This document shows, in pieces, positions 9,018 to 30,008 of a DNA stretch of 64,000 nt; the first letter of the stretch is position 1, and every line of letters starts with the position of its first letter. The notes under the pieces were generated by a model. It worked only from the letters and a program-made list of their open reading frames with translations, did no database searches and had not been told where the DNA came from. A program made the translations under genes and the position numbers. This stretch comes from Methanosarcina horonobensis HB-1 = JCM 15518 (GTDB lineage Archaea; Halobacteriota; Methanosarcinia; Methanosarcinales; Methanosarcinaceae), in assembly GCF_000970285.1 (NCBI RefSeq), contig NZ_CP009516.1, positions 1,777,036 through 1,841,035 on the forward strand, given 5' to 3'.

Positions 9018-10532
9018 ATGAAAAATTATATGCTGGCTATGCTACTTGGCGTCTTGTTCACAATGCTAATAGGAACTGGCCTTGCACAGAATGTGGAAAC
9101 AGATGACGCGGAGGCTTTTCGACAGGCTTTAGAACAGGACGGGTTTATCGTACAGGAAGGTGAATTGGGTTACTTTGATTTAATCAGGTTATTAGAGGAA
9201 GGAGTATTGCCTTCTGCATATGGAAACAATCCAACCACAAAATATGTGGCATATTTTGTTCCAGCGGCATCTGGCCATGAAATAGATGAACGGATTTCTA
9301 GATTAACAAGTACGCTCGGGATGAGCGGGAATACAACTCCGTTCTGGAACCTTGGTCCTGATGAAGCTGTTGTTTTCGTGGGAAGAACACCACCGGAATG
9401 CAGATATTTCAGCTACGATAATTTCATAATGCACAGGACAATTGGGAACGAGAGGAGATGGATCTTTGCTAACATAGCAGATACAGTGAACAACATGGTT
9501 ATCAAAACCGAAGGTACTCCAGATGGGTCGTCCGGGGATCCTTTCAATCAAACCACGGTGATAATCATTACTGCTGACAGAGGCATTGATCAACGCATCA
9601 GGGATGCTGCTCAATCTGCAGGGTATTCGGACGATATAATTAATACCCAGGTGCTTCCCTCAGTCATGCTGAACATGGGCCTGGATAATGATTCCGATAC
9701 ATTTGCCTCATTTGTCCGTCCGGCCTTATTCAATGACACGCAGGCTGGCGACGATTACATCAATAATACACCTGCAACTGTTTTCCGGATTACTCCAAAC
9801 AACACTACTGAGCTTGACCCGTATGATTACCCGGAATTGAGGGTCCGCGGAACCGGGCAAACAGAGTTTGATCTTACGGATGATCTCGAAGAGCTAAGGA
9901 CTGCGATTCTCAACAAATATAATGAGTCGAATGCCACAGAGCTTCCGACCAGTCAGGCAGTTCCGATAGGGAGTGATGCTATTCAGAGAGGAATCAACGG
10001 CGTAGGTCCTACCAACGATGCAGCCTATCTATGGACAGCAAACCAGACTATTTCTTCGCCAACACCTCCTTTCTATAACACTTCGGAGTACTATCCTTTC
10101 CTGCAAGACTCGGCAATTACTCTGGGCAACGATACTGATGAATTCATAATTGTCTATGGGGTTAACCATGTAGCTACAGGAAAGGCTACGTACTCGAACT
10201 TCGCAATATACGGAGCGGATGTATGGAATGGTGTTAGAGCAATCACAGACGCAGATTTCAACGGATCTGCTGAGGAATACCTACCTGACAATCCCAATGC
10301 GAAATATCTGTATGTTTATAAGCTCGCCAGGAACTGCAGTGAGGATGATCAATACTGCTACGAAGTTCCTTATGGTCAGGGAGTTCATGGTATAGAACTG
10401 GATCAACCGCTTTTCATTGGCTGGAGAGCCTACCTGGAAAATACTACAAAAACCGGGCCATCTTACTCAGAGATCCTGTACGACCGGGCTATAAAGTTTG
10501 ATCCAATGAATTCTGGTAACATGAGCTCCTAA
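9018..10532 (+). CDS. secreted glycoprotein-like paralogue 1
   Basis: 504 residues with a signal peptide (residues 1-23, cleavage after GLAQ). The body is acidic and rich in N-X-S/T sites (NNTTEL, NATEL, NQTIS, NDTDE, NTTKTG), as in archaeal N-glycosylated surface proteins. There is no C-terminal membrane anchor or PGF-CTERM motif, so it may be released or held by partners. No enzyme motif recognised. The ATG at 9018 has GGGGG 9 bases upstream; another ATG between the two is out of frame. It is very similar over its whole length to 11145-12671. Confidence 0.78.
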   Translation: MKNYMLAMLLGVLFTMLIGTGLAQNVETDDAEAFRQALEQDGFIVQEGELGYFDLIRLLEEGVLPSAYGNNPTTKYVAYFVPAASGHEIDERISRLTSTLGMSGNTTPFWNLGPDEAVVFVGRTPPECRYFSYDNFIMHRTIGNERRWIFANIADTVNNMVIKTEGTPDGSSGDPFNQTTVIIITADRGIDQRIRDAAQSAGYSDDIINTQVLPSVMLNMGLDNDSDTFASFVRPALFNDTQAGDDYINNTPATVFRITPNNTTELDPYDYPELRVRGTGQTEFDLTDDLEELRTAILNKYNESNATELPTSQAVPIGSDAIQRGINGVGPTNDAAYLWTANQTISSPTPPFYNTSEYYPFLQDSAITLGNDTDEFIIVYGVNHVATGKATYSNFAIYGADVWNGVRAITDADFNGSAEEYLPDNPNAKYLYVYKLARNCSEDDQYCYEVPYGQGVHGIELDQPLFIGWRAYLENTTKTGPSYSEILYDRAIKFDPMNSGNMSS

Positions 10533-14564: not shown

Positions 14565-14578
14565 CGCACTAAAATAGA
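14565..14578. repeat. 14-bp target-site duplication, left copy
   Basis: CGCACTAAAATAGA is repeated exactly at 25232-25245. Casposons generate duplications of 14-15 bp. The copy lies directly outside the left inverted repeat, which opens with GGG. Confidence 0.88.
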
Positions 14579-14639
14579 GGGTAATAGGTAACTCAAATTT
14601 TTTGTACGCCATTGCAAGAAATATGCACAACCGTTTTTT
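14579..14639 (+). repeat. casposon A left terminal inverted repeat
   Basis: Begins GGGTAATAGGTAACTC and continues through a T-run to GTACGC. Its reverse complement aligns with 25171-25231, closely for 31 bp and roughly two thirds identical for 30 bp more. Confidence 0.88.
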
Positions 14640-14765
14640 AGGATGTAGCCTTAACTCAAAAATACAAGTAACTTCTTTAATGCAAATTTAAATAAAAACT
14701 CAGGTTTTTAATATTTTTAGTCTGAATAATAGGTAATTGCATTTACTTTTTCCAAAAGGTTTCCG

Positions 14766-15557
14766 TCATTTTTGATCATTACAGTCTTTTTCAACTGAGA
14801 TTACAGGATTAATTCTATCTGATACGATTATTCTTCTCAGGCTTCCATCTGGGTTCTTTAACCATCTAATAAGTCCCCCATCTAGAGTCCTTTGTACAGG
14901 TATATTTAGACAATTCATTTCTTCTGGTGATAACTCTTTAAGTGGTATTTCTGTGACGTTATATTGATTAGTTAATGCAAATTTAAGTGAATCAAACTGA
15001 TTCTTAAGGGTATTTATGGAGTTTAATAACACGGTCGTATCATTGGATAGAACTTGATCATTTAGAAGTTTAGCAGGTTTGACACTCAATGAATGAATTA
15101 AAGAGTTTTCTAGATTATCTCTTAATTCATATGTGTTTTTTAGAGTATCTGCGATTAACTTGATTGATGAATTTATTTGATCAACTCTTAAACTTTCATT
15201 GTAATCAAGGCATCTTAACCCATCAATGTCAAAAATACGTGGGGTGATCAAGTCTTTTATAATCGTAACTGGTTTATTAAAAGATTGTCTTATTCCAAGT
15301 TCAAAAAGAACATTTGGATTTTGACCACTTAAATCACAGATAGCCATAGGTGAATTTAAGAGTCTTGTCAGTATATCTTTTACAATAAAATTTGTGTTTT
15401 TAATTTCGTCAGACCTTATAGGGGCAAAACCGGCTAGCGCGCATGCAGGTTTAATCAGATGATCATAGACTATTTTGAAATGTCCCTCTTCATAGGGTGA
15501 CCTATCCGTTATCGGCATAATTACAAAACATTCTTTTATACTATCGGTGTCTCCCAA
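14766..15557 (-). CDS. nucleoside deoxyribosyltransferase/TIR-like predicted defence protein
   Basis: 263 residues. The N-terminal domain (about 8-150) has the signature CFVIMPI, YEEGHFKIVYDHLIKPAC, and the block DILTRLLNSPMAICDLSGQN followed by PNVLFELGIR. This places it in the Rossmann-like nucleoside 2-deoxyribosyltransferase/TIR superfamily, whose members cleave or sense nucleotides such as NAD. The acidic residue in LFELG is the likely catalytic one. The C-terminal ~110 residues are an unrecognised domain. It lies next to the left TIR, and the neighbouring Mrr-like nuclease is on the same strand. This pairing inside a mobile element suggests antiviral cargo; that is inference. Confidence 0.68.
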   Translation of the reverse strand: MGDTDSIKECFVIMPITDRSPYEEGHFKIVYDHLIKPACALAGFAPIRSDEIKNTNFIVKDILTRLLNSPMAICDLSGQNPNVLFELGIRQSFNKPVTIIKDLITPRIFDIDGLRCLDYNESLRVDQINSSIKLIADTLKNTYELRDNLENSLIHSLSVKPAKLLNDQVLSNDTTVLLNSINTLKNQFDSLKFALTNQYNVTEIPLKELSPEEMNCLNIPVQRTLDGGLIRWLKNPDGSLRRIIVSDRINPVISVEKDCNDQK

Positions 15558-15853
15558 GGTATCGATTTTGGTACTCGCATCATTGCTTTTAGGTATACAA
15601 ATCGCCTCATGAAATTAGTCAGTTAAAAACACCATTTAAAAAGTGTTATTATATCTTTTATACATTTGGTTAAGAGTCTAATATGCGAACATTGCCTTCT
15701 TAACTTTGATTTTAAGTAAACTATCTAGTTAGTTTATATTCTATAAATTTTGTAATTATTTTTGGAATAAGAACCTGAAAAAATTGATACATGGATTTTG
15801 TCATAAAAGCTATGATTAAAAAATAAGAAATATAGAAATAGTTAGGTTTGATT

Positions 15854-16978
15854 TTATTGAGACGCTTTACTGTCTACATTAAACAATTCTTTAAATTTCG
15901 TAGGATCAAAATTAATTATTTCTAACATTTCTTCTTCAAATAAAAACGATAATACATATTCACAAAAGAAATTATAAATGGAACGATATTCTTCGTTTTG
16001 ATCTTGTATATTGTCTAGTTGACGATTAATCTTTTCCAATGTGCTTTCGATTACTTCTACAGAATAATGATTTTCAGATTCCTTTTCTTTCAATAATTCA
16101 TTTTGGATAGATTCTCTGAGAGACTCAAGGTTTTTGATACTTTGGTCTAAAGTTGTTGTGTCTCCTAATCTGAAACAAGTTTTCAATACAATATCTGTAA
16201 CATAAGTAGCTACTGATATGTTTTTATTCTTTTTTTCAGTTTCATAGCATTTAGACTTAAAATTTTCATAACTAACTTCATCAAGTAATAAATTTCTAAA
16301 CGTTTCATTCATCGTGGTTGGCTTTCTAAACTTAGGTCTAATTATTGAGCTGTATGCATAGCCTAAAATTTTGTCCCTCTTCGTTGCCTCAATATTATCC
16401 ATAATTTTAAAGAAAGAATCCAGCTTAAAAATATGTAAATCTTTAATATATAGTAGATGATTTGGATGCATAATGTTTATAAACGAAAAATCGTACCCAA
16501 TGTTATATTTTTTTAATAACAGTGAATGTCCTTGCGTAACTTTCTCTAAATCTTTTTTTTCCCAATATTTAATTTTAAATGGAGGTCTGTTCTCACGAAC
16601 ATAATCATCTAGAGAATTCTTACATTGGTTAGATAAGAAATTTGAAGCTATGATTAGTACTCTATCAGGTCTTTTAGAAGTCGCCCAACTCAATACGCCT
16701 TGAATTTTTTCAGGTGGAACCCCTGTTTTATAATGTTTACATTCAACAAACCACTTTTCAATTATTAATTCCCCATCTACTACATCTTCAAGTACTCTTT
16801 CGCACTCAATATCCCTTCCTTGATCAGAAGGACTAGAAGCGTGCCCTGTTCCTTTTCTCCAATTTACATTTCTAAAGCCTAAGCATTCTAACAATTCAAA
16901 ACAAAACTCTTCAAACTGAGTTGAATTTAAATGATCAAAAGAAAATTTATTTTCATAATTAATCTCTAATTGTTGCAT
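15854..16978 (-). CDS. Mrr-type restriction endonuclease-like protein
   Basis: 374 residues. The N-terminal 150 form a PD-(D/E)XK nuclease domain: a helix FDHLNSTQFEEFCFELL, the acidic residue D56 in QGRDIE, and E79-C-K81 in VECKHYK, followed by IQGVLSWA and a strand DRVLIIASN. This is the Mrr/Holliday-resolvase-like arrangement used by modification-dependent restriction enzymes. The C-terminal half is helical and rich in Lys and Glu with no recognised domain; it may sense the target. A ~300-bp gap separates it from the NDT-like gene. Cargo of casposon A, probably defensive. Confidence 0.7.
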   Translation of the reverse strand: MQQLEINYENKFSFDHLNSTQFEEFCFELLECLGFRNVNWRKGTGHASSPSDQGRDIECERVLEDVVDGELIIEKWFVECKHYKTGVPPEKIQGVLSWATSKRPDRVLIIASNFLSNQCKNSLDDYVRENRPPFKIKYWEKKDLEKVTQGHSLLLKKYNIGYDFSFINIMHPNHLLYIKDLHIFKLDSFFKIMDNIEATKRDKILGYAYSSIIRPKFRKPTTMNETFRNLLLDEVSYENFKSKCYETEKKNKNISVATYVTDIVLKTCFRLGDTTTLDQSIKNLESLRESIQNELLKEKESENHYSVEVIESTLEKINRQLDNIQDQNEEYRSIYNFFCEYVLSFLFEEEMLEIINFDPTKFKELFNVDSKASQ

Positions 16979-17138
16979 AATTAGAATTAAGTGTCAAGAG
17001 TTAAATAACCTGTTAAAAGTTTTAGAAAGCTTCCTACCGAAATTTGAACTATAAAAAAACTGATTTTACAAAATATGTAAAATTAACCATATTTTACTAC
17101 TCTTTTATGCCTTTTTTATACCATCTTTTACTATTTTC

Positions 17139-17214
17139 TGTAAAATTTACATTTTACCTGTAAAATTTACAGTCTTTCCTGATACTGTTTTACAATTTTA
17201 CTGTAAAATTTACA
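17139..17214. promoter_or_regulatory. iterated TGTAAA-N-TTTACA near-palindromes 3' of cas1
   Basis: Three copies of TGTAAAATTTACA start at 17139, 17159 and 17202, with further partial copies at about 17068-17090 and 17225-17245 (TTTTACATTTTACAGTAAAA). The same kind of sequence lies beside the cas1 fragment at 28785-28835. They could be binding sites for the element's own HTH, RHH or Cas1 protein, an origin-like iteron set, or a bidirectional terminator. Confidence 0.5.
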
Positions 17215-17257
17215 TTTTCTACTTTTTTTACATTTTACAGTAAAAATATACACATTT

Positions 17258-18475
17258 TTACTTTTGACTTGAAACCAACGCTTCCCACTTATTCACCCTT
17301 TCCAGAACATGAGCATTAAGAGTAAATGGCTTATCTGACTTGGCGTTCTGTTTCATATAATGTAAAGTGCCTTTGGAAAACCCTAATTTCTTCCAGTCAA
17401 CATAAGAAATATTGAGTATCTTTTGTCTTATTTCATAGGAATCAATTCTCTCAATTTCATACTCAGGCTTAACAAAGTCCAGTTTCTCCTTTTTGCTAGT
17501 AAGATAATGGGTTAACTCTCTTACCTTCAAAAAGATAACATAACTCCAAGTGCTTTCTTTCCCCTGGTAACTTACCTTTTTGTTCAGCATATTGGAAAAC
17601 TCATTAACAATTTTCCTTGCTCCTGTAGGTTTCAGCCTCAAATTGTAATTTTCTGTTCTTATGAAATCCTTACTTTCCATAGCTCCGCTTTCAACCAGGC
17701 TAATTACTGCCAGATCAACAAGGAACCTGAAAGGCTCCTGAAGGTCATAGGCTAAACTGTTCTTGCTTGGAGTCATTTCATGCAAAAACCCTACATGAGC
17801 ATCCAGACCTACAGTGTTTATGGCTCTTAAACACTCAGCCTCAAGGAGAGAATAGCCATAATTGAGCATAGTGTTTACTATATCTCCTGAACCCATAGCT
17901 CTTCTGAACTGGTCTATCCTGTTACAGAAATCATATTCCTTTGGAACAGCTTTAGAGAACTCAATCCAGTATTTACCGGCTAAGGTTCCCTCTACTCCCA
18001 AAATTTCCCTGGTGCTCTTTACTTCTCTTAACTTTGTGAGTCCATCCGAAATATCAAATTTAATTTCAGGATATCTTTGGCTAAGGAAATCAAGCACGGC
18101 TTTAGATTTATCGAATTTAGCCTCAATAAACTTCTTTGCTATCTCAAGCCTTGCTTCCTTATCCTCAAAAGCATGATACTGAGAAAACTTTGTTCTTAGA
18201 TTTGTACTTTCAGGAGGAAGCATTGTGGTTAAAAGTTTGCCGTTCCAGTCTAAGATAGAAACTTGGACATTATGCTTAATAAGCCATCTAATAGCCTCTA
18301 AGGTAAGGTTCCCACTCTTACCATAGATGATAATGCCGTCAATATCAATCCTTTTAGGAGAAAATACATATTCTTGAGGCTCTTCAGTAGTTGAAAATCT
18401 TCCTTCTTTAACATGGAGCCTGGCTCCATCAACATGCATATTTATGCCGTGTCCATTCAAAAGAAGAAGCTTCAT
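17258..18475 (-). CDS. cas1: Cas1 family integrase (casposase)
   Basis: 405 residues. An N-terminal beta domain (MKLLLLNGHGINMHVDG.., GIIIYGKSGNLTLEAIRWL) is followed by the helical catalytic domain. Conserved metal ligands are visible: E162 in VEGTLAGKYW, H232 in GFLHEM and E247 in YDLQEPFRFLVD, with D244 beside it. In casposons this protein cuts and joins the terminal inverted repeats to a target with a 14-15 bp duplication. The ~60 residues after the Cas1 fold (EYEIERIDSYEIRQ... LGFSKGTLHYMKQNA) look like an added HTH, a known casposase feature. ATG overlaps the stop of the upstream wHTH gene (ATGA), so the two are co-translated. No cas2 and no CRISPR array nearby. Confidence 0.95.
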   Translation of the reverse strand: MKLLLLNGHGINMHVDGARLHVKEGRFSTTEEPQEYVFSPKRIDIDGIIIYGKSGNLTLEAIRWLIKHNVQVSILDWNGKLLTTMLPPESTNLRTKFSQYHAFEDKEARLEIAKKFIEAKFDKSKAVLDFLSQRYPEIKFDISDGLTKLREVKSTREILGVEGTLAGKYWIEFSKAVPKEYDFCNRIDQFRRAMGSGDIVNTMLNYGYSLLEAECLRAINTVGLDAHVGFLHEMTPSKNSLAYDLQEPFRFLVDLAVISLVESGAMESKDFIRTENYNLRLKPTGARKIVNEFSNMLNKKVSYQGKESTWSYVIFLKVRELTHYLTSKKEKLDFVKPEYEIERIDSYEIRQKILNISYVDWKKLGFSKGTLHYMKQNAKSDKPFTLNAHVLERVNKWEALVSSQK

Positions 18476-19377
18476 TTGAAATCAACCTCTTTTTCTCCTT
18501 TTGTATATGGATTTTCATGTAACCCCAAATTAATTAGAGCATCAGTCCTGATATTGGAAACAAACTGTGAAGCGTTTTCTTTTCCTTCAATTGCTAACTC
18601 TTCCTCTAATTTGTATAGTTCCTCTCTGTGTTCCTCAATAAGATTGGCTGTATATTCTGTATTGTAAACATTTTCTATAGAAGAAAGATCTTTTAGGATT
18701 CTTGCATCTTCCATAAACCTATCAATTACGGCTTTATGCCCATAATGCCCAAGAAGATAGATAATGTGAGTTCTAAGGTTTACATGGGTTGAAACAGGAA
18801 CAGGATATTTCTCTAGCAATTTTACTAACAGGTCAATTGTTTTTGTTTTATTGGTTGGCTCAATACCTTTTTTCAAAATATATCTGTCTAATAAAAGTAA
18901 TAGCTTATCAGCAAGCTCATTATCTATAGTTCCTACATCAATGTTCTTATCAAACTGAGATACCACTAGATCCAATTGTTTTGGGGTTAAAACATAAGTT
19001 TGTTCATAACGGGCAATCTCTTTTAAAGCCATTTTTTGCTTTATGGACTCTTCTGAATCAAGCCTTTCTAAAATCTTATCCATATGCTCCGTTATTTTGG
19101 ATATATTTTTCAAGGTCAGATAACTGGCGTTTTTATCAGTATCCTCTATTCCTAATTTCCCAAAATCAGAATATTCTAGGCGTATAATCATACCTTGTTT
19201 CTTTAGGTTGTCTAATTTACGGTTTATACTCTTGAGGCTGTACCCAAGTTCATTTTTATGCTTTTTCATCAGGTCTTCGATGAGTTGTTTCCTTCTTGCA
19301 TATCCTTTTTGTGTAAGATACTGCTTTACCTCAGTTTCAAAGTCTCTTTGTGTCACAAATAATACTCTCTTTTTCAT
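18472..19377 (-). CDS. winged-helix DNA-binding protein of the casposon
   Basis: 301 residues. Residues ~25-75 (ARRKQLIEDLMKKHKNELGY, SLKSINRKLDNLKKQGMIIRLEY) form a winged helix-turn-helix. The remainder is helical and leucine-rich with no recognised domain. It is the first gene of a two-gene operon with cas1 and overlaps it by 4 bp. It faces the RHH-HNH-PolB operon across a ~105-bp divergent promoter region. Probable regulator of the element or accessory to excision; HTH genes beside cas1 are usual in family 2 casposons. Confidence 0.75.
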   Translation of the reverse strand: MKKRVLFVTQRDFETEVKQYLTQKGYARRKQLIEDLMKKHKNELGYSLKSINRKLDNLKKQGMIIRLEYSDFGKLGIEDTDKNASYLTLKNISKITEHMDKILERLDSEESIKQKMALKEIARYEQTYVLTPKQLDLVVSQFDKNIDVGTIDNELADKLLLLLDRYILKKGIEPTNKTKTIDLLVKLLEKYPVPVSTHVNLRTHIIYLLGHYGHKAVIDRFMEDARILKDLSSIENVYNTEYTANLIEEHREELYKLEEELAIEGKENASQFVSNIRTDALINLGLHENPYTKGEKEVDFK

Positions 19378-19482
19378 GTGTTTTACTCAAGTATATACAA
19401 AATATATGTCAAACTTATACTTAAAGTTATACTCAATTCTGTACATAAGTGTGATAGGGCGTATTATATGTTGTGATAAAAA
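19378..19482. promoter_or_regulatory. divergent promoter/operator region of the casposon
   Basis: About 105 AT-rich bp between the two casposon operons. It contains TTATACTTAA and TTATACTCAA as direct repeats 11 bp apart (19420-19440) and an inverted relative CTCAAGTATA at 19386-19395. This arrangement suits binding by the RHH or wHTH protein encoded on either side; that is inference. Confidence 0.5.
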
Positions 19483-19623
19483 GTGACTGAAAAAAATCGT
19501 GTTTTAATTACACTGTCTCCTTACCTTAAGGAGAAACTTAAACAGAAAGCAGAAGAATACGGATGCTCTCAGGCTGAAGTTATGAGAACAGCTTTTATCA
19601 GAATGATGGAGGCTGAAAGATGA
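19483..19623 (+). CDS. small ribbon-helix-helix protein
   Basis: A 46-residue protein starting at GTG 19483: a short strand (RVLITLSPYL), then helix (KEKLKQKAEEYGC) and helix (SQAEVMRTAFIRMMEAER). This is the complete CopG/MetJ-type ribbon-helix-helix fold, which binds DNA as a dimer. Its TGA overlaps the ATG of the next gene (ATGA), so it heads the rightward operon. Likely autoregulator of the casposon replication genes. Confidence 0.7.
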   Translation: MTEKNRVLITLSPYLKEKLKQKAEEYGCSQAEVMRTAFIRMMEAER

Positions 19624-20258
19624 GCCGACCAAGATTTTCCAAAGACTACAGGACTTATGGAGAATGGCTCAAGGCTCAGCCCAGGGATACAAAATATGCT
19701 AAGGAAATCATCAGGAAACACAAGTTTTTCCCTGATAAAAGCCTCAGCCAGCTTAGAAACCTAAAGATAGGGGATTTTGACCTTAGCCAGACAGCCTGGA
19801 AAACTCTTTCAGCCCAGGATAAGAGAGATAGAAACCTATCTCTCCAAATTTTAAGGGAAATGAGAAAAGGAGAAAATCTTTCTTCTATACTTGAAAAGAT
19901 AGGCAAAAGGACAGAATTTGCAGTCAAGCATCTTGGAAAGAACCTGCATAAGTCAGAAGGAACCTGGAAGGTTACAAAAACAGACACTATCCAGGCTGAA
20001 ATGCTGATTTACTCCACAGAAGGACAAAAAACGATTATTACAGCCAGTTCTAAGGATAGGTCTTTAATTGCAGAATATCATGCCAATGTTCAGAAGGCAA
20101 TAAAAAACAATGATCCTTCAGTTCTTGCCAAATTTAAGGATATTCAAATAGTGGATGCTAAAGGCAAAGTCCACCACTTTGAAACCGACCTTGATAAGCT
20201 CTATGAGATCCTGGAAGCCCAGGAAGAGCCAGAGTTTTTGGAAATTTATCAGCACTGA
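19620..20258 (+). CDS. conserved casposon protein of unknown function
   Basis: 212 residues, basic in its N-terminal half (MSRPRFSKDYRTYGEWLKAQ, RKHKFFPDKSLSQLRNL) and acidic at the C terminus. The pattern KFFPDKSLSQLRNLK suggests a DNA-binding helical segment, but no family is recognised. It is translationally coupled to the RHH gene by an ATGA overlap. Its TGA is followed in the same frame by the HNH gene after only 12 bases, so the two could once have been, or elsewhere be, one protein. Confidence 0.6.
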   Translation: MSRPRFSKDYRTYGEWLKAQPRDTKYAKEIIRKHKFFPDKSLSQLRNLKIGDFDLSQTAWKTLSAQDKRDRNLSLQILREMRKGENLSSILEKIGKRTEFAVKHLGKNLHKSEGTWKVTKTDTIQAEMLIYSTEGQKTIITASSKDRSLIAEYHANVQKAIKNNDPSVLAKFKDIQIVDAKGKVHHFETDLDKLYEILEAQEEPEFLEIYQH

Positions 20259-20270
20259 GGAGGTGAAACT

Positions 20271-20603
20271 ATAGACAAAGAAACCTATCAAAAAACTTTG
20301 AACAAACAGAAGAGAAAAGGAAAACCTTCTCTTTGCTGTATTGTCTGTGGGGAGGATGACCCAGAAGTTATTGAAATGCATCATGTCTATGGAAGGAGCA
20401 ATTCAGATCAGGTTAAGCCTCTCTGCAAAAACTGCCATTCCAAGGTAACAAAGGAACAGAATAAATTTAACCCAAAAGCCAGATCTGGAAATGCCTCTTC
20501 TGAGCAAAAGAGAGCTTTTCAGATTGTATCTATTGGTGCCTTGCTTACAGAATTAGGAACTCAGCTAATTGATCTTGGAAATGAGATGGTGCAAAATGTC
20601 TAA
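20271..20603 (+). CDS. HNH endonuclease of the casposon (possible ATA start)
   Basis: 110 residues with the zinc-bound HNH layout: CCIVCG (C-x2-C), EMHHVYGRS (the HH of the motif) and PLCKNCHSKVT (C-x2-C-H), then a helical tail. HNH nucleases are standard in casposons, probably for DNA processing. No ATG, GTG or TTG lies near the ribosome binding site. A perfect GGAGGTGA (20259-20266) is followed 4 bases later by ATA at 20271. The first conventional codon, TTG at 20298, is 31 bases from the site. I therefore propose ATA, a rare start codon. The gene overlaps the polB start by 8 bp. Confidence 0.8.
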   Translation: MDKETYQKTLNKQKRKGKPSLCCIVCGEDDPEVIEMHHVYGRSNSDQVKPLCKNCHSKVTKEQNKFNPKARSGNASSEQKRAFQIVSIGALLTELGTQLIDLGNEMVQNV

Positions 20604-23295
20604 AGTTGCAGTCAGGGGATATACTCAGAGGCTTGAGAAAAAAGGAGAGTATAGGAGCTTTAGGCGTTATGATACTCCTCTCAGGCATAACAGGGTACTG
20701 GTCTTTGATACTGAAACCACAACCGACCAGTATCAAAATTTTAAGATAGGATACTTCCAGATCTACCAGGATGGAGTTATTCAGCATGATGGTTTATTCT
20801 ATGATCCATCTACCCTGAACGAAAGAGAAATAAAGACTCTGGAAGCCTATTCAAGAAAACATGACATAAGCCTGTATTCCCTGGGTAAGTTCATAGACAA
20901 TGTGTTTTATCCTGAAGTCTTTGAGCTTAAAACCCTCTGCAATGGGTATAACTTGGCTTTTGACATAAGCAGGATAGCCAAAAAATCAGGAGATTCAAGG
21001 GTAAAGAATAGAGGGGGCTTTACTCTTACCCTCTCAGATGACCCTTTCAACCCTCCTATAATAGTCAAAAAGCTTGGATACTCTAACAGCTTCAAGTTTA
21101 CCACTACTAAGCAGAACAAAGGAGAGAGCTACTTCTCAGGCTATTTCCTGGATACTCAAAGATTAGCTGAAGTTCTCCTTCAGTCAAACCATATTTCCCT
21201 TGAGAAAGCAGGAGAGAAGCTTAACACACCTGTTCAGAAGATGAAAGGGATTGAACATGGGAAGGTTACTGAAAAGTACATTGATTATCTAGTAAAGGAT
21301 GTTGAAACTACCCAGGCTGTATATGAGAAGCTTGTTAAGGAGCTTGATGTTTATCAGATTCACATACCCATAACAAAGATCTTTAGTGAGGCTTCTATTG
21401 GAAAACATTCTCTTGAGCAAATGGGGATTAAGCCATTCTTGGAAATGAATCCAGATTTTCCAGATTCGATTATTGGAAACATGATGACTTCTTATTTTGG
21501 AGGAAGAACAGAATGTAAAATCAGGAAGGAGCCAATAAAGGTAACAGTTCTTGATTTTACAAGCATGTACCCTACAGTTACAATGTTAATGAACCTCTGG
21601 AAATACATCATAGCTGAAAGCCTGGAAATTCAGGACATAACCGAGGAGGTTAGGATATTTGTTTCAAAACTGAAGCTTTCAGACCTTCAGAAACCGGATA
21701 CATGGAAAAAGCTTGTTGTTATGGTTAGGATTCAGCCAGATAATGACATTTTGCCTGTAAGGATGGATTACAAAGGAAATAATACAGGCTTTAACGTAGG
21801 AATCAATTATCTGAGTTCTAAGTCTGAGATGTGGTATTCTTTACCGGATGTTATAGGCTCATATCTCCTTACCGGCAAGGTTCCAAAGATTATAGAAGCC
21901 GTGAAATTTGTTCCTAAAGGAGTACAGAAGAACTTAAGGAAATCCAGGGTTCTTGGAATTGATATTGATCCATTAAAGGATAATGTTGTTCAGGTTCTTG
22001 TAGAAGAGAGGCAGAGGATTAAGCAGGAATTGAAAAACACAGAGAGAAATGATCCTGAATATCAGCATTTATCAAGCAGAGCCCAGGCTATCAAGATTCT
22101 TGTAAATGCTCTGAGTTATGGAATCTTTATTGAGCTTAATCCCGAAGATAAGAAAAGCGAGTTTCAGGTTTATGGGCTTGAAAACTTTGTTACTAAGGAA
22201 AACAGGTTCGAGAAGTCAGGAAAGTATTTTCATCCTCTCCTAGCTGTTATGATTACGTCAGGAGCCAGGCTTTTCTTAACAATGGCTGAAGCCAGATTAA
22301 AAGAGCTTGGGGCAATTCACGCTTATATGGATACTGATTCTGTGTTTGTACCTCCTGATAAGGCTCAGGAGCTTGTAGAGTTCTTTCAGCCTCTTAACCC
22401 CTATAACATTGATATTCCATTGCTTAAACCTGAGAAAAAAGATCTCTGGTTTTATGGAATTGCTTCTAAAAGGTATGCTCTGTACTATTATGAAGATAGA
22501 AAAATCAGGTTCATGGAAGATGAAAGATCTTATAAGCTTCATGGGCTTGGACATTTAACAAACCCTTTCCCTAACTCAGTTGAAGATTGGCAGGGTGAAA
22601 TCTGGCAGGATATTCTTAAACTGCATTATGGGCTGATTACTGAAAGGGATATTGGAGAGAAGTATTCAAACCTTTATGCAATTTCCAAGCTTACTGTCAG
22701 CACTTCCAATGTATTGAACAGGTTTAAGAAACTGAATGATGGGAAGCCTTGGAAAGAGCAAATTAAGCCTTTTAACTTCTTTCTTGTAGGGTTCCAGGCA
22801 ATTGAAGAAAATGAGAAGGCTGTTAAGCCTCTGGCTCCATTTACCAAAGATTATCAGAAGATTGTCTATGAGCCATTTATTGATTATGAAAAAGGAGAAG
22901 TTAAGGAAGGATCTCAGTATTTCAAACCATTGAGCAGAACAATTTTGCAGTATATTGAGCATCTTGAAAACAAGTTTGATGGAGATATAGGAGTTTTAAA
23001 GAGGAAATATATTCAGGCTGATGGTCTTGTTTACATTGGGAAAGAAGCAAATAATATTGAGGATCAGCCTTTAGATGTTACTGGGGCTCAAGGTTTTATT
23101 AATGAGGAAGAGACAATAAACTTTATTTTGACTCTGATCCCTGAAAAAGCCCGAAAAATAGGTATTAAGCACCGGAGTGAACTAAAATATCTGAAAGAAA
23201 AAGCAAGAGAGAGAAAGCTAAATTTTAATACTACCAATATGCAAAAAATTCTGAAATATTATAGCTCTCAAGGATTGAATACTGAAGCTAAATAG
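20596..23295 (+). CDS. polB: family B DNA polymerase of the casposon
   Basis: 899 residues, a protein-primed-like or short archaeal PolB of the type carried by casposons. Exonuclease motifs: D38-T-E40 in VLVFDTETT, NLAFDISRIA (ExoII) and YLVKDVETTQAVY (ExoIII). Polymerase motifs: D320-FTSMYPT (A), K500-ILVNALSYG (B) and Y577-M-DTDS (C). All catalytic acids are present, so it should be active with proofreading. I prefer ATG 20596 over the upstream frame start at 20569 because homologous-looking sequence begins at MSKVAVRGYT. It ends with TAG followed at once by TAA, a backup stop in a lineage where UAG can be read as pyrrolysine. Confidence 0.93.
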   Translation: MSKVAVRGYTQRLEKKGEYRSFRRYDTPLRHNRVLVFDTETTTDQYQNFKIGYFQIYQDGVIQHDGLFYDPSTLNEREIKTLEAYSRKHDISLYSLGKFIDNVFYPEVFELKTLCNGYNLAFDISRIAKKSGDSRVKNRGGFTLTLSDDPFNPPIIVKKLGYSNSFKFTTTKQNKGESYFSGYFLDTQRLAEVLLQSNHISLEKAGEKLNTPVQKMKGIEHGKVTEKYIDYLVKDVETTQAVYEKLVKELDVYQIHIPITKIFSEASIGKHSLEQMGIKPFLEMNPDFPDSIIGNMMTSYFGGRTECKIRKEPIKVTVLDFTSMYPTVTMLMNLWKYIIAESLEIQDITEEVRIFVSKLKLSDLQKPDTWKKLVVMVRIQPDNDILPVRMDYKGNNTGFNVGINYLSSKSEMWYSLPDVIGSYLLTGKVPKIIEAVKFVPKGVQKNLRKSRVLGIDIDPLKDNVVQVLVEERQRIKQELKNTERNDPEYQHLSSRAQAIKILVNALSYGIFIELNPEDKKSEFQVYGLENFVTKENRFEKSGKYFHPLLAVMITSGARLFLTMAEARLKELGAIHAYMDTDSVFVPPDKAQELVEFFQPLNPYNIDIPLLKPEKKDLWFYGIASKRYALYYYEDRKIRFMEDERSYKLHGLGHLTNPFPNSVEDWQGEIWQDILKLHYGLITERDIGEKYSNLYAISKLTVSTSNVLNRFKKLNDGKPWKEQIKPFNFFLVGFQAIEENEKAVKPLAPFTKDYQKIVYEPFIDYEKGEVKEGSQYFKPLSRTILQYIEHLENKFDGDIGVLKRKYIQADGLVYIGKEANNIEDQPLDVTGAQGFINEEETINFILTLIPEKARKIGIKHRSELKYLKEKARERKLNFNTTNMQKILKYYSSQGLNTEAK

Positions 23296-23676
23296 TAACC
23301 CCGTCTTCCTAGATAAAATTAGAACCTCCATAGTAGTAAAACTCAGAAACATCAGCGTTTTCCACTAAGATTAAAGACGGTTATTGTGGTTTTCATTAGA
23401 ATGCCTAAATTTCCCTATCTGACGTATTAAGTAAACTAAGATTGCCTCTTTCCTAACTTATTAGTTCAGTGATCTAAACTCATTATCTTTTTTGGAAATT
23501 ACTCCTCGTTTAAGTATGTTTTAACATTGAAAATAGGCTTTATACGTCTTTTTGACACACACGAGTTTATCATTAAATTACATAAAAAAAATACAATTTC
23601 GTTAATTTATTTAGTAAGTTATATATAGTAGCTATATGAACCTTAGTTTAAAACAAAGAATTAAAGAGATTTAAAC
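23296..23676. other. intergenic within casposon A
   Basis: 380 bp, AT-rich, without a gene. A strong AT block with a TTATATATAG stretch at 23620-23629 may be the promoter of the following membrane protein gene. Confidence 0.4.
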
Positions 23677-24321
23677 ATGCAGGATATGCCAAAAAACGAA
23701 CCTGAGTTTAAAGAAGATATTTTGCAAATAATACTCAATGAGTCAAGAGACCTGAGAAACCAGCAACTTGAACATTTATTTCAAACTTCAGAAAACATAT
23801 GGGGCAGTTTGAATTTGTTACTGGTTCTCTTGGGAATTTACGCTTCTGTATTTCTTTTTTTATGTGATTTTAATAATGTACATCTTATGTCAAACAAAAT
23901 AATTACTTGTCCTTTAATTATTAGTGTGTTGTTTATATTATTCGCTATAGTTAGGGCTATAATTGGAATTTTTCCAACTAATAAATTTAGAGTTCCTACT
24001 CCAAATGCAATCTATGAATTACTTGCTGAAGAGAAAGAAATAATATTGGAAAAATTTACTCAAACATACTTATTAGGGTATGGAAGTATCATAATTAGTG
24101 CTGAAGAGCGTAATTCTCTTAGAAAAGAGATAATTATGGTAGCATTAGCCTCAATCGTTGAGTTTATATTTTTCGTTTCAGCTTTAATTTTGAAAAATCT
24201 AACTATAATGTTTGTTACAATATCCATAATTTTTGTTATATTATTTGTGGTGTTTATGATAGGTTTTATAGAAAGTGAGGGCAAAAGAATAGAAATGCTA
24301 CAGGAAGATATGAATTCATGA
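23677..24321 (+). CDS. four-helix membrane protein, casposon cargo
   Basis: 214 residues: a charged N-terminal helix (residues 1-42), two membrane helices (about 48-66 and 76-98), a ~50-residue soluble loop, two more membrane helices (about 152-170 and 174-194) and a short charged tail. The 2+2 helix plan with a cytoplasmic loop resembles small effector membrane proteins of defence systems, but no family signature can be named. It is separated from polB by 380 bp and is followed after 35 bp by the tiny PKLP genes, which may belong with it. Confidence 0.5.
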   Translation: MQDMPKNEPEFKEDILQIILNESRDLRNQQLEHLFQTSENIWGSLNLLLVLLGIYASVFLFLCDFNNVHLMSNKIITCPLIISVLFILFAIVRAIIGIFPTNKFRVPTPNAIYELLAEEKEIILEKFTQTYLLGYGSIIISAEERNSLRKEIIMVALASIVEFIFFVSALILKNLTIMFVTISIIFVILFVVFMIGFIESEGKRIEMLQEDMNS

Positions 24322-24356
24322 ATTAATTTGTTTGTTTATAAGAAGGAGGTTTGAAC

Positions 24357-24497
24357 TTGGTTAGAGAAACTAAAAATTTGGATAAGGAAAATAAAAATAG
24401 AGAAATACCGAAACTTCCGGAAGAAGAACCTATAAGAAGCATATGGATACAGAAAGGTGGTTCTAATAATGACAGGAAAAATAACAAGGAAAAGTGA
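24357..24497 (+). CDS. tiny charged protein 1 with PKLPEEEPIR motif
   Basis: A 46-residue frame starting at TTG 24357 with AGGAGGT 7 bases upstream. The centre reads IPKLPEEEPIRSIWIQKGG and the rest is Lys, Asn and Glu, so it is probably unfolded alone. The motif PKLPxxEPhK recurs in the next frames (24469 and 24792). It overlaps the second gene by 29 bp in another frame. Unknown family; the strong RBS and repeated motif argue for real translation. Confidence 0.5.
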   Translation: MVRETKNLDKENKNREIPKLPEEEPIRSIWIQKGGSNNDRKNNKEK

Positions 24498-24618
24498 AAT
24501 GTATGAAATAAAAGAAAAGCCAAAACTACCAGAGAAGGAACCTTTAAAAATGAAAGATATTCAATTATCTGAGAACCCAAAAAAAGAACTAAAAAAAAGT
24601 CCAAAGAAAAACTCATAA
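24469..24618 (+). CDS. tiny charged protein 2 with PKLPEKEPLK motif
   Basis: 49 residues from ATG 24469, with GGTGG 8 bases upstream. It contains KEKPKLPEKEPLKMKDIQLSE and a very basic tail (PKKELKKSPKKNS). It shares the PKLPxxEPhK core with its neighbours. Just after its stop, another frame continues with a related but degenerate copy (24619-24740). Confidence 0.5.
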   Translation: MTGKITRKSEMYEIKEKPKLPEKEPLKMKDIQLSENPKKELKKSPKKNS

Positions 24619-24740
24619 AAAGCACATCAGTTCAAAAAACAAATTATAATAACGCCAAAAGATGAGATAAAAGAAAAGCCAAAAATTACCATAAAAGTCT
24701 TTAAAAATAGTAACCCAAATGAGAATAAAGTGTTGACATA
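24619..24740 (+). pseudogene. degenerate PKLP copies
   Basis: Two overlapping broken frames. One ends in STSVQKTNYNNAKR at a TGA (24663-24665), comparable with the C terminus of protein 3. The other begins EIKEKPK and loses the motif through a one-base change in phase (compare GAAATAAAAGAAAAGCC in protein 2 with GAGATAAAAGAAAAGCC here). They look like decayed members of the same tandem family. Confidence 0.4.
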
Positions 24741-24791
24741 GGCACAATCTATCAGATATACAGAAATTGAAAGAGATATAGAGGTAATATC

Positions 24792-24917
24792 TTGAGTGAC
24801 ACGAAAGCCCCAAAAAAGACTACTCCTAAATTGCCAGACAAAGAGCCTATAAAAACAGTAAATTTACAAGCAAACAGGAAAGTAACAAAAAAATCCACTG
24901 GTAACGTTAAAAGATAA
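24792..24917 (+). CDS. tiny charged protein 3 with PKLPDKEPIK motif
   Basis: 41 residues from TTG 24792, with GAGGTAA upstream. It reads TTPKLPDKEPIKTVNLQANRK in the middle and has a basic tail. Same core motif as proteins 1 and 2. It is the last gene before the right TIR of casposon A. Confidence 0.5.
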   Translation: MSDTKAPKKTTPKLPDKEPIKTVNLQANRKVTKKSTGNVKR

Positions 24918-25170
24918 TTTCCTATCATTCGGATTTCTATAAATTATCAAACAAACTCACCCAAACAATGTAAAAATATTCCTAATTAGTGATTGTCTCT
25001 GAAAAAACTCACATGATATTCTTCGAATAACATGCCCAAACAATGAAAATACTTGAAAGCACTTTCATGCTAAATAGATTTTTCAGAAGTCTTGCAGAGA
25101 TATAGAATAAATTTAATTTTTTATTAATAAAGGTTATAGAAATCTATTTTTTGGTTAAAGCAATTTTATG

Positions 25171-25231
25171 AAAAAATGGTACTGCAATTATCTTACAGTT
25201 GCGTACAAAAAATTCGAGTTACCTATATCCC
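25171..25231 (-). repeat. casposon A right terminal inverted repeat
   Basis: Read inward on the minus strand it begins GGGATATAGGTAACTCG and reaches GTACGC after the same T-run as the left end. Only three of the first 31 positions differ, and weaker similarity continues to about 61 bp. Confidence 0.88.
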
Positions 25232-25245
25232 CGCACTAAAATAGA
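25232..25245. repeat. 14-bp target-site duplication, right copy of A and left flank of B
   Basis: CGCACTAAAATAGA is identical to 14565-14578. It is followed directly by GGG and a second left-type TIR, so this single copy serves as the right flank of casposon A and the left flank of casposon B. Confidence 0.88.
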
Positions 25246-25307
25246 GGGAATATATACAACGCTAAAAAAGTGTACGCTATTGAAAAATATCTACATCGCC
25301 GTTTTCT
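25246..25307 (+). repeat. casposon B left terminal inverted repeat
   Basis: Reads GGGAATATATAC...GTGTACGCTATTGAAAAATAT...CCGTTTTC. It aligns in direct orientation with 14579-14640, with the same GGG start, GTACGC and CCGTTTT landmarks. Similarity is lower than between the two ends of A, so B is a different or older element. Confidence 0.75.
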
Positions 25308-25656
25308 AAAAAGTTATCCTTAATAAAAATTAATTAATTTCTATAATATTTGTTCAAAAGAGTTGACTCATTTTAATTCATCGTTCAGTTGTCTTTTAAG
25401 TTTATTATCAAAGAAAATAGTTCAAAATTTTTATTAGTCAAAGGTTCTGCACATTCCCCTGGGCAAGATAAAAATCCAAAGTTTTATTTGACTATAGTAT
25501 GCTTTTTTAAAGGTGTTTTAGTTTAAATGCTAAGGTGTTAATTTTCATGAAATCATAAATCTAAAGGAGTTACTAGATTAAACTCTAGTTGAAATTAAAA
25601 GCAAAAAATGTTATGAGCTACTTAAAAAAGTTTGCAAGCAGCAAAGGAGCAGATAA

Positions 25657-28602
25657 ATGTCTGAAGATGCGATTCTGAGGTTACACCAAACAGGTCTATT
25701 TAATAAGCTTCTTGAGAAAGAGAATGAAGAGAAAAAAAGTACTTCAATAGAAGATCATGAAATCTCACAAAATATAATTTCAGTTGTTCGCAAAGCTGCT
25801 CCTTTGTTAGAAAGAATTCCAATAAACATGCCTGAATTCACATTACATAACGCTAATCATAGTATACATGTAATTAAAAATATAGAAGATTTAATACCTC
25901 CAGAGACTCTTGAACAATTAAACGCTGTTGAAATTTCCATACTTATTTACGCTGCGTATCTTCACGACATAGGAATGATCTCTTCTTCTGATGAGCGGAA
26001 GCAGATTGTTAAAACTAATGAATTTAAGAAGCTTTTAAACTCAAATGAAGAATTATATGAAAAGCTTGAGAAAGCGAAAAACAATGGCGATTATCAAGCA
26101 GTACTTGAAATTGAAAACAAAGCATTTACTGATTTTCTTCGAAAAAATCACGTTGAACATGCACACAAAATAATCAAAGAATATGAATTGGACTCTGAAA
26201 TCTCATGGAAAGGCACTTCATACTATAAATGGGTAAAGGCAGTATGCGACAGTCATGGACTTCCAGTAAAAGAGCTAAAGAAGAATGATAATTGGCCAAT
26301 TGATGTTTTAGTACGAAATAAGCCAGTGAATGTTCAGTATTTATCTCTTATATTACGACTAGCTGATATATTGGATCTCGATTCCGAAAGAACACCAAAG
26401 CGTTTATTCTATCATATAAATCCAAAGGATAAAATCAGCATTCAAGAGTGGGAAAAACATCTTTCCATTACTGGATTTCGGATTGGACCTGAAGAAATCA
26501 AAGTTGAAGCTGAATGTAAAAGTCCAAACTGCGAACGTGTACTTAGAAAATTTATAAAAGATATTGATAAAGAACTCGAAGAAAGCAATTATTTGATTTC
26601 GAGTTATAGAGCTGATTTCGCTAAATATAGATTAAATCTTTCTGAGTCAGTTAATGTACGAATCCATTCTATTGGTTATGAATACCGTGATTTCCGTTTC
26701 GAACTTGATTATCGTCGAGTCCTCGACTTACTGATGGGAGAAGGACTATATGGAAATCCGGTTGTAGCACTTAGAGAGCTTCTACAAAACTCTGTAGATG
26801 CTGTACGTTATAGAGAATCTCTAGAGAAAAGAGAAGGAAATGGTTATCGCCCTAGCATAGAAGTCTCTTTGACAAATGACGAATTAATTGTTGAAGATAA
26901 TGGCATCGGAATGGATGAGGAGATATTTAAAAATTATTTCATGAAAGTTGGTAGAAGTTATTATCAAAGCTCAGATTTTCGTGAAAAAAATGTGGACATA
27001 GATCCTGTAAGCGAATTTGGAATCGGTATTTTATCAGTTTTTATGGTTGCCGATAAGTTTACCGTTGAGAGTAGAAGAAAAACTTTTGAAGATGAGCTCA
27101 ATCCATACATATCAATATATTTTGAAATCCCAACAGCTTATGACTATTTTGTAAAACGGCAATCTAAACGTTCTAAGTATGGAACGAAAATAATTTTGAA
27201 CTTAAAATCTGATCATCCATTTTCTCCCTCATCACTAATTGAAAAAATATCAGAAATTGCTCCTTTTATTGAATATCAAATAAAGGTTAAAACAAATGAT
27301 GAAACAAAAATCTATGAACCTCTTTTACCAGGTGAAATATATGGAGATACCTCTAACATAAAAACTTATTATGACATTACTTTTAATGAATTGGATAAAT
27401 CTGAGGGGATAGAAGGTACAATGAAAGTTGTAAGGACTTCTAGAGAAAGAAAACATCTGATCGCTCAACGGGGTTTCTCAATTCCTCTTGACAAACTATT
27501 ACCCCCTTGGTTATCCAATAGTCTCCTGATGTCAATAAATATTTCAGGTCAAACAAAATTATCACTATCTCCAAACAGATCAAATATAATTGAAGATGAA
27601 AAATACCATGAGTTAATTGAAAAAATACAATTGAGATTATTAGATGAACTCGAAAATAGCTTGAAGACATATAGAGATTCGAATACATTTGAAAAATATA
27701 TTAAATATGTTGATGAATTAATAGATGACAATTTTTTTAGTACTTATAGACATGATCCGCCTTTTGGATCCGATTATGAGGAAGATAAGAGAATAGAATT
27801 AATGACAAAAATCATCCTCAATAACGTTCCTTTTCTAACGATTTCACGTGACGGAACACGTGCTTATAAATTAGTTAAAGACTTTAATAAGTTTTCAACA
27901 ATAGTAGTAACTTCAGAAATTTGGCCTGAAGAAATCCAAAACGAAAATGTTTTCGAAGAAATAAAACGTCTAATCGACCTAGATGTAATTGTTTTACTAG
28001 GTAGAGATCAGAATAGCATGAGGAAATACTACATGTTATGTGAAATTTTAGAGAATCCTTCTGACATCTATATTACATCTATACCTGGAGTCGTCGTCAA
28101 AACTTTTGTAAGTAACGATGATTTAAAAATGTATAGTATTAACTATAATATGTTCACATTTAAGATGTATAGTAAAACTGGAACCAAAGAACCGCTATTT
28201 GTTCATGATCCAGAAGATAATATTGATTCTGAAACAGTGATTTTTAATGCTAATCATCGATTATTGTATAGATTTTTTGATGGATGGGATCCAAGAGATG
28301 AAAATTGTCTTGAAGCGTTAAATTATCTGGGTAAACTCTTTTCCGATTTATTAATTAATATGGAGGCTGTAGCATTTTCAGCTTATAACACACGAGGGAT
28401 CAGATATAAGGAGGATATAAATTGCTCGTATATTGGAATACTCAAACATTATCCAGAAATATTTGAGTATTTCTGTAATGCAGTAGAGGAGTTTTGGAAA
28501 AATGCCCAAGATGTGGGAGCTATTTCTCATGGTGAGGAGTTTCCTGGTTTTAATGTGGATGACCTACCTTGGTTTTGGAACTATTGCAATGAGCAAACAT
28601 GA
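25657..28602 (+). CDS. HD-domain/Hsp90-type ATPase fusion, predicted defence cargo
   Basis: 981 residues. N-terminal HD phosphohydrolase-like domain: histidines in LHNANHSIHV (64-71) and H103-D104 in YLHDIGM, then HGLP and RLADILDLD. From about 345 comes a GHKL ATPase of Hsp90 type: E374/N378 in RELLQNSVDA, D414 in DNGIGMDEEI, and GIGILSVF at 455-462, followed by an Hsp90-like middle domain (RGFSIPLDKLLPPW, SLSPNRSNIIEDE). The last ~330 residues are unassigned. ATG at 25657 has AAAGGAG 7 bases before it. Such HD-Hsp90 proteins occur in microbial defence islands; the activity here is inferred. It occupies the same slot in B as the NDT/Mrr pair does in A. Confidence 0.75.
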   Translation: MSEDAILRLHQTGLFNKLLEKENEEKKSTSIEDHEISQNIISVVRKAAPLLERIPINMPEFTLHNANHSIHVIKNIEDLIPPETLEQLNAVEISILIYAAYLHDIGMISSSDERKQIVKTNEFKKLLNSNEELYEKLEKAKNNGDYQAVLEIENKAFTDFLRKNHVEHAHKIIKEYELDSEISWKGTSYYKWVKAVCDSHGLPVKELKKNDNWPIDVLVRNKPVNVQYLSLILRLADILDLDSERTPKRLFYHINPKDKISIQEWEKHLSITGFRIGPEEIKVEAECKSPNCERVLRKFIKDIDKELEESNYLISSYRADFAKYRLNLSESVNVRIHSIGYEYRDFRFELDYRRVLDLLMGEGLYGNPVVALRELLQNSVDAVRYRESLEKREGNGYRPSIEVSLTNDELIVEDNGIGMDEEIFKNYFMKVGRSYYQSSDFREKNVDIDPVSEFGIGILSVFMVADKFTVESRRKTFEDELNPYISIYFEIPTAYDYFVKRQSKRSKYGTKIILNLKSDHPFSPSSLIEKISEIAPFIEYQIKVKTNDETKIYEPLLPGEIYGDTSNIKTYYDITFNELDKSEGIEGTMKVVRTSRERKHLIAQRGFSIPLDKLLPPWLSNSLLMSINISGQTKLSLSPNRSNIIEDEKYHELIEKIQLRLLDELENSLKTYRDSNTFEKYIKYVDELIDDNFFSTYRHDPPFGSDYEEDKRIELMTKIILNNVPFLTISRDGTRAYKLVKDFNKFSTIVVTSEIWPEEIQNENVFEEIKRLIDLDVIVLLGRDQNSMRKYYMLCEILENPSDIYITSIPGVVVKTFVSNDDLKMYSINYNMFTFKMYSKTGTKEPLFVHDPEDNIDSETVIFNANHRLLYRFFDGWDPRDENCLEALNYLGKLFSDLLINMEAVAFSAYNTRGIRYKEDINCSYIGILKHYPEIFEYFCNAVEEFWKNAQDVGAISHGEEFPGFNVDDLPWFWNYCNEQT

Positions 28603-28845
28603 CATTGTATCCAAGAATTTGACGTTGAATTTATAGAGAAATTGGCATGTCCCATTTTAAATGAGTTAATGTCTTTATTATTAGTTCTTCAACCTTCTCC
28701 AATTTTGAACCATTTTACTGAATTTTACTAAGGGATGTAAAATTAATTAGATTTACAACTCTTTTATAGCCTCTCCTTAAGCCGTTTTACTATTTTACTG
28801 TAAATTTTACATTTTTTACATTTTACAGTAAAAACATACACATTT

Positions 28846-29399
28846 TTACTTTTGACCTGAAACCAATGCCTCCCACTTATTTACTCTTTCCAGAACATGT
28901 GCATTAAGAGTAAACGGTTTATCTGACTTGGCGTTCTGCTTCATATAATGCAAAGTACCTTTAGAAAACCCTAATTTCTTCCAGTCAACATAAGAAATGT
29001 TGAGGATCTTTTGTCTTATGGCATAAGAATCAATTCTCTCTATCTCATATTCAGGCTTAACAAAATCCAGTTTTTCCTTTTTGCTTGTGAGATAATGGGC
29101 TAATTCTCTAACCTTAAGGAAGATAACATAACTCCAAGTGCTTTCCTTTCCCTGGTAACTTACTTTTTTATTCAGCATATTGGAAAACTCATTAACAATT
29201 TTCCTTGCTCCTGTAGGTTTCAGTCTCAAATTGTAATTTTCTGTTCTTATGAAATCCTTACTTTCCATAGCTCCATTTTCAACCAAGCTGATAACTGCCA
29301 GATCCACAAGGAACCTGAAAGGCTCCTGAAGGTCATAGGCTAAGCTGTTCTTGCTTGGTGTCATTTCATGCAAAAACCCTACATGAGCATCCAGACCTA
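28846..29399 (-). pseudogene. cas1: cas1 3' fragment (casposon B)
   Basis: Encodes about the last 184 residues of a casposase nearly identical to 17258-18475, starting at GLDAHVGFLHEM. It keeps the catalytic H and E but lacks the N-terminal domain and the first catalytic glutamate, so it cannot work alone. The downstream 110 bp also match casposon A. Identity to A ends after CCAGACCTA, where the complete gene continues CAGTG and this copy continues into the palindrome ATAACTCGAGTTAT. Confidence 0.9.
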
Positions 29400-29412
29400 T
29401 AACTCGAGTTAT
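29399..29412. repeat. 14-bp perfect palindrome at the cas1 breakpoint
   Basis: ATAACTCGAGTTAT is a perfect inverted repeat lying exactly where similarity to the intact cas1 ends. It may be the deletion scar or the entry point of another element. Confidence 0.7.
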
Positions 29413-30008
29413 ATGCAAAATCAAATTGTGGGCGGCCACTCACCCTAAAGAATGTGGTATTCTTCAGGTCGCCCGCTCGGTTAGTCTGGTACTTATAATT
29501 TGTTAATTCTCCTATGCTTAGATTTCTTTAATTTATATGTTGAACGTCTGTTTTTGGTATTACCCGTGCCTCCTTAATGTAATGCTTGGTTGCGTCAACA
29601 GTAACAAAACCATACTTTACAAAGAAGCTATAGTTTAGAGATTTAAATGAAAAAAGAAGCGAAAGTTCACTTCTGCCCCGACTTAAATGACCGGGTATTC
29701 GTGACCCTCCGCACTTCCCGTAATAATATAGAAATTTCTTAAGATCCAGTATTATATTCCCATACTCCTTATTTTTTAGGTTGTAACACTGAGAACAGTA
29801 TTATATGAATTTATAATGTTATCATGTTTTAATCAAAAAAATAAAGCTTTATCAAGCTTTAAACTCAAATTCGGATTTTTATTTAATCTTCTGAAAATAA
29901 GTATGTTTATATAGTAATTTATCCTGTAGTTTTTGAGTAAATTTATTCTGTAATTTTTGATTATGGGTGTTCCCGGATCAAAATATGGAAAAAACAGGAG
30001 AAAATAAC
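29413..30008. other. intergenic right of casposon B, with nested hairpin
   Basis: No gene. At 29430-29474 a nested hairpin can form: outer GGGCGGCC/GGTCGCCC arms enclosing AAGAAT-GTGGT-ATTCTT. Hairpins of this kind occur at ends of IS200/IS605-type elements, but no tnpA or tnpB is present. The rest is AT-rich up to the promoter of the PKD protein. Confidence 0.4.

Follow-up and report, generated by a model that had tools for sequence, protein, structure and literature searches.

The DNA analyzed here (the 'window') is a stretch of 64,000 nucleotides from Methanosarcina horonobensis HB-1 = JCM 15518. It includes a casposon in which three tiny open reading frames (ORFs) follow the gene for a four-helix membrane protein. 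The features that define the casposon, and the cargo at its left end, are as follows, with positions counted from the first letter of the window.

14565 to 14578, plus strand: left target-site duplication CGCACTAAAATAGA, 14 bp
14579 to 25231: casposon, 10,653 bp (~10.65 kb) between the outer ends of its terminal inverted repeats (TIRs)
14579 to 14639 and 25171 to 25231: the two TIR arms, 61 nt each and 80% complementary
14766 to 15557: left-end cargo, protein that weakly matches a TIR effector model
15854 to 16978: left-end cargo, Mrr-like restriction endonuclease
17258 to 18475, minus strand: Cas1 (PF01867, E 1e-64)
20569 to 23295, plus strand: PolB (PF00136, E 4e-7; 88% identity to other casposon polymerases)
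25232 to 25245, plus strand: right target-site duplication CGCACTAAAATAGA, 14 bp

This element is a casposon, as evident by its TIRs, its target duplication of ~14 bp, and its combination of a solo Cas1 with a family B polymerase. Read on the minus strand, its right end has the sequence GGGATATAGGTAACTC, with which the published TIR of the M. mazei casposon also begins (PMC10359463). The resemblance to this type element extends to the Cas1, the PolB, an HNH-like protein, the 14-bp length of the target duplication, and a tandem array. Unlike the M. mazei element, however, the casposon of the window carries the membrane protein and its tiny companions as cargo, which is absent from the other casposons examined.

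These genes fill the slot that lies between polB and the casposon's right end. In eight other Methanosarcina casposons, the corresponding slot holds RES-domain, sacsin/NOV_C, TPR, repeat, or unnamed membrane proteins, and the content differs in each. Because each of these casposons carries a different gene between polB and its right end, we regard this location as a variable cargo slot. Interest in casposons stems from their role as ancestors of CRISPR adaptation, whereas to our knowledge little has been learned about what their cargo does. The module itself is arranged as follows.

23677 to 24321, plus strand: four-helix membrane protein, 214 aa, the first gene of the module, directly before the tiny ORFs
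24343 to 24350, plus strand: near-perfect Shine-Dalgarno sequence AAGGAGGT of tiny ORF 1, read from the sequence
24357 to 24497, plus strand: tiny ORF 1, 46 aa, TTG start, core IPKLPEEEPIRSIWIQ
24469 to 24618, plus strand: tiny ORF 2, 49 aa, ATG start, core KPKLPEKEPLKMKDIQ
24661 to 24710, plus strand: dead copy of tiny ORF 2
24781 to 24785, plus strand: Shine-Dalgarno sequence GAGGT of tiny ORF 3, six bases 5′ of the TTG, read from the sequence
24792 to 24917, plus strand: tiny ORF 3, 41 aa, TTG start, core TPKLPDKEPIKTVNLQ

A preliminary description of this DNA had reported three frames of 46, 49 and 41 residues with a common motif, located after a four-helix membrane protein inside a casposon, and the coordinates, lengths, alignment, TIRs, duplication, cas1 and polB all bear this out. 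It had also credited two of the frames with clear ribosome binding sites; the Shine-Dalgarno sequence of ORF 2 is weaker (AAAGGTGG). The start of ORF 2 lies inside the end of ORF 1, so that the two frames overlap by 29 nt. Alignment of the three proteins reveals the common core PKLP[ED]xEP[IL][KR], which is followed by a hydrophobic pattern with an [IL]Q end. Beyond this point the tails are lysine-rich, divergent and poorly conserved, and the underlying region is A-rich. All three proteins are basic, with net charges of +3, +7 and +9 and pI values of 9.5-10.6. Of the degenerate copies that were said to lie between the frames, we recover one, located between ORFs 2 and 3, whose DNA alignment score of 51 compares with a best score of 37 among 300 shuffles; the plural is not supported. 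This copy carries a one-base insertion inside the motif, followed by a stop codon in the shifted frame.

The base composition of this region raises the concern that the frames are not genes at all, and that low-complexity, A-rich DNA simply reads as lysine-rich peptides with poorly conserved tails. Indeed, a DNA-level search with the region yielded only A-rich chance matches. Several observations argue against this explanation. The nine codons of the core, compared among the three copies, give a pS of 0.89 versus a pN of 0.14, although this contrast is biased and partly circular because the core was chosen for its conservation. The differences fall mostly at third codon positions or are CTN/TTG leucine exchanges, as a coding sequence would show. 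When the three proteins are aligned in pairs, only 0-0.2% of shuffles reach their scores. Sequence comparison demonstrates that the tiny frames are homologs of one another, apparently constrained at the protein level in their core.

The motif is also rare. We scanned 30 Methanosarcina genomes with a DNA pattern for P-K-L-P-x-x-E-P (CCN-AAR-YTN-CCN-N6-GAR-CC), which yielded five matches, three of them within 440 bp at this locus; a reversed control pattern gave four matches in the same 30 genomes. The other two matches in the genus lack a comparable small ORF beside a membrane protein. When the looser pattern [KR][LIVM]Px(1,2)EP was applied to 471 kb of other DNA in six frames, it gave just two matches beyond the module, one of them at a locus that had been fetched by the motif itself. 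From about 1-2 matches per 471 kb in six frames, we estimate that the chance of encountering the motif within ~200 bp downstream is on the order of 1e-4. Given the synonymous pattern of the core, the ribosome binding sites, the rarity of the motif, and the occurrence of a similar ORF next to a homolog of the membrane protein (see below), the view that these frames are not genes is very improbable and can be considered largely refuted.

The tiny proteins do not resemble any family that we could match, in agreement with the preliminary description. Searches of Pfam, NCBIfam, PHROGs and PADLOC returned zero matches, ORF 2 has no match among phages and plasmids, and an Rfam search returned nothing. 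Sequence searches that used the tiny proteins alone gave only chance matches; one of these, with 57% identity in another Methanosarcina genome, falls within a polyferredoxin-like gene but is read in an alternative frame. Overall, the evidence supports the view that the tiny proteins constitute a real, translated-looking and previously undescribed family arranged in tandem.

The decisive evidence comes from the larger neighbor. The membrane protein likewise has no curated family match in Pfam, NCBIfam, PHROGs or PADLOC, and no relatives were found in 29 other Methanosarcina genomes, elsewhere in 237 genomes of its own class, or in IMG/VR, phages and plasmids. Among 294 genomes of the phylum, there is one intact relative in another class (34% identity over 185 residues, E 1e-21), which is encoded on record JAUWQN010000017.1 of a metagenome-assembled genome labelled Methanosarcinales archaeon CSMAG_2503. 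Searches of whole genomes from the class of this relative (58), from two small classes, and from one class of 232 added only a remnant. A scan of contigs, which provided the sole coverage of bacteria, returned the same relative and nothing else; because it uses short peptide patterns, distant bacterial relatives could escape it. AlphaFold2 models, predicted with two sequences, were of too low quality for use (pLDDT 47 and 57), and a fold search was uninformative.

The preliminary description had proposed that a motif-bearing small ORF should be sought next to the membrane protein, and such an ORF is present beside the relative. It spans 35 codons, begins 2 nt past the stop codon of the membrane protein gene, and reads KKKKLPKEPPLQTIQI. 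For this ORF (MGEKKEKKKKKKLPKEPPLQTIQITMEQEVKKEKE), GGAGG lies within the last codons of the preceding membrane protein gene. The product keeps the core, K-L-P and then E-P, followed by a hydrophobic stretch, and carries a net charge of +5. A third genome, from the same class as the relative, retains a joint remnant of the pair, in which a deletion has fused the final membrane helix directly to EPPLQTITI. Thus, the two genes lie side by side in two genomes of different archaeal classes, and what is left of the pair is found in a third. A lack of conservation and of coding bias would have refuted the preliminary description, but core changes are mostly synonymous and the frame is conserved in another class. 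Both the coding status of the tiny frames and their linkage to the membrane protein are well supported.

The first residues of the membrane protein of the window (23677-23720) read MPKNEPEFKEDI, which resembles a variant of the tiny-protein core. That this segment is a copy of the motif is at most a lead. The chance of the pattern is 0.2%, but the alignment is not significant (8% at best), and the segment is absent in the relative.

The tiny ORFs adjoin the right terminal repeat, and tandem small ORFs near the ends of mobile elements are often anti-defense genes. It could therefore be argued that the tiny proteins serve the casposon, in transposition, regulation or as anti-CRISPR factors, and that the membrane protein is an unrelated neighbor. 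We find this improbable, since the pair also occurs in another class, where no cas1-like ORF is present in the 12 kb read around the relative. Furthermore, the tie to Methanosarcina casposons that the preliminary description had implied is not supported, as neither the motif nor the membrane protein occurs in any of the eight others examined. Because the relative has an adjacent tiny ORF and the remnant preserves parts of both genes, the tiny ORF is tied to the membrane protein and not to the casposon. The family is thus one half of a two-part module and is not a feature of casposons as such.

Beside the intact relative lies a gene for a type IIG restriction-modification enzyme, with a TIR gene nearby, and the remnant lies beside a type II DNA methyltransferase. 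Since the pairing recurs in an archaeon that is only distantly related, where antivirus genes adjoin it, we regard the tiny proteins as probably genuine partners, and perhaps off-switches, of the membrane protein. Defense neighbors in one setting and a cargo slot in the other point, by association only, to a conflict system. The Mrr-like nuclease and the weak TIR-effector match in the casposon itself lean the same way, as do the RES-domain and sacsin/NOV_C proteins that, among unrelated genes, occupy the slot in other Methanosarcina casposons. In the relative's locus, a TIR-domain protein and then a small TPR protein are encoded directly upstream of the membrane protein (8470-9860 of that locus). 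It is possible that these two proteins form a four-gene defense locus together with the relative's pair.

The charges of the two components provide a clue to how they might interact. The predicted cytosolic segments of the membrane protein in the window are acidic (net -5, -2 and -3), which makes direct binding of the basic tiny proteins plausible; in the relative, the cytosolic charge is less clearly negative as judged by eye. We tentatively favor a two-part module in which the basic tiny proteins would attach to the acidic cytosolic side of a defense effector that acts on the membrane, and so hold it back. Such a module would consist of the four-helix membrane protein and its tiny, basic and probably cytosolic partners, produced from one apparent transcription unit. 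The KLPxxEPhK core would serve as the docking motif for the acidic cytosolic side, and the tails may contribute electrostatically. When bound, a tiny protein would keep the membrane protein inactive in an antitoxin- or gate-like role, and release upon infection or loss of the element would allow the membrane protein to perturb the membrane. Tandem copies might raise the dose of inhibitor or vary its specificity. This inhibitor reading draws on one intact relative and one remnant, and its defense neighbors amount to guilt by association.

Nearly as likely, although hardly probable in its own right, is that the membrane protein forms a four-helix channel or transporter and that the tiny proteins belong to it permanently, as small subunits or as assembly factors, without acting as inhibitors of a toxin. 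The conserved adjacency and tight spacing of the genes fit this idea, and small Methanosarcina proteins are reported to act on membrane complexes, by binding Mtr or by inhibiting the transport of ammonium. However, a patchy presence (one of 30 genomes of the genus), mobile or defense settings, and 3+1 tandem copies with freely diverging tails suit an accessory conflict gene better than a housekeeping one.

Small, positively charged proteins that diverge in tandem beside a membrane protein could also be its substrates, such that the membrane protein exports or senses them as signals, bacteriocin-like peptides or effectors. This arrangement seems improbable, because the sequences read as having no signal peptide, double-glycine leader or cysteine, and no processing or ABC-transport gene was found near the locus. 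In addition, the conserved part is an acidic, proline-containing core in the middle of the protein rather than a leader.

If the inhibitor reading is adopted, two groups of known systems invite comparison. Like type II toxin-antitoxin systems, the module joins a small basic protein and a larger one in what looks like a single transcription unit, and it is found in mobile or defense settings. It departs from them in that a membrane protein with four helices, encoded first, would be the effector, and in that no DNA-binding antitoxin domain and no known family are matched. The small multi-helix membrane protein and the defense-like neighborhood also recall the SLATT, S-4TM and TIR-TM effectors, yet no profile in PADLOC or Pfam matches the membrane protein. 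The 8xMP family (PF24838) gave a weak local match to the first two helices of the relative (E 0.0012, about 19-20.8 bits). We rejected it as the parent family since this score is below the 30-bit cut-off, the protein of the window is unmatched, and the family loci inspected lack a KLP..EP ORF.

A broader proposal, which we put forward as speculation and consider rather doubtful, is that the pair would represent an archaeal module of a new kind, serving immunity or addiction, in which a tiny protein holds a four-helix membrane effector in check through KLPxxEPhK. Casposons and defense islands would have spread this module, and its inhibitor would have been duplicated into a tandem array. In any case, a membrane protein with partners of fewer than 50 residues, seen again in a defense island of another class, is a concrete system, small enough to be put to the test in Methanosarcina. 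The approach of anchoring on a neighboring gene also recovers genes that are too small for annotation.

To the right of the module-bearing casposon, a second, decayed casposon lies head-to-tail at 25246-29439, shares the target duplication, and has its left repeat from 25246. It includes a truncated copy of cas1 at 28846-29439 on the minus strand. Such a tandem arrangement has been described for Methanosarcina (PMC9939771), and the casposon end to the right of the duplication together with the truncated cas1 identifies the present case as an example. The second element also encodes a 981-aa protein with HD-CE and HSP90-like ATPase regions (25657-28602), which resembles defense proteins. Finally, short repeats around TTTACATTTTAC are located beside both cas1 copies, at 17146-17261 and 28786-28820; downstream of the intact copy, three of them follow one another in tandem.
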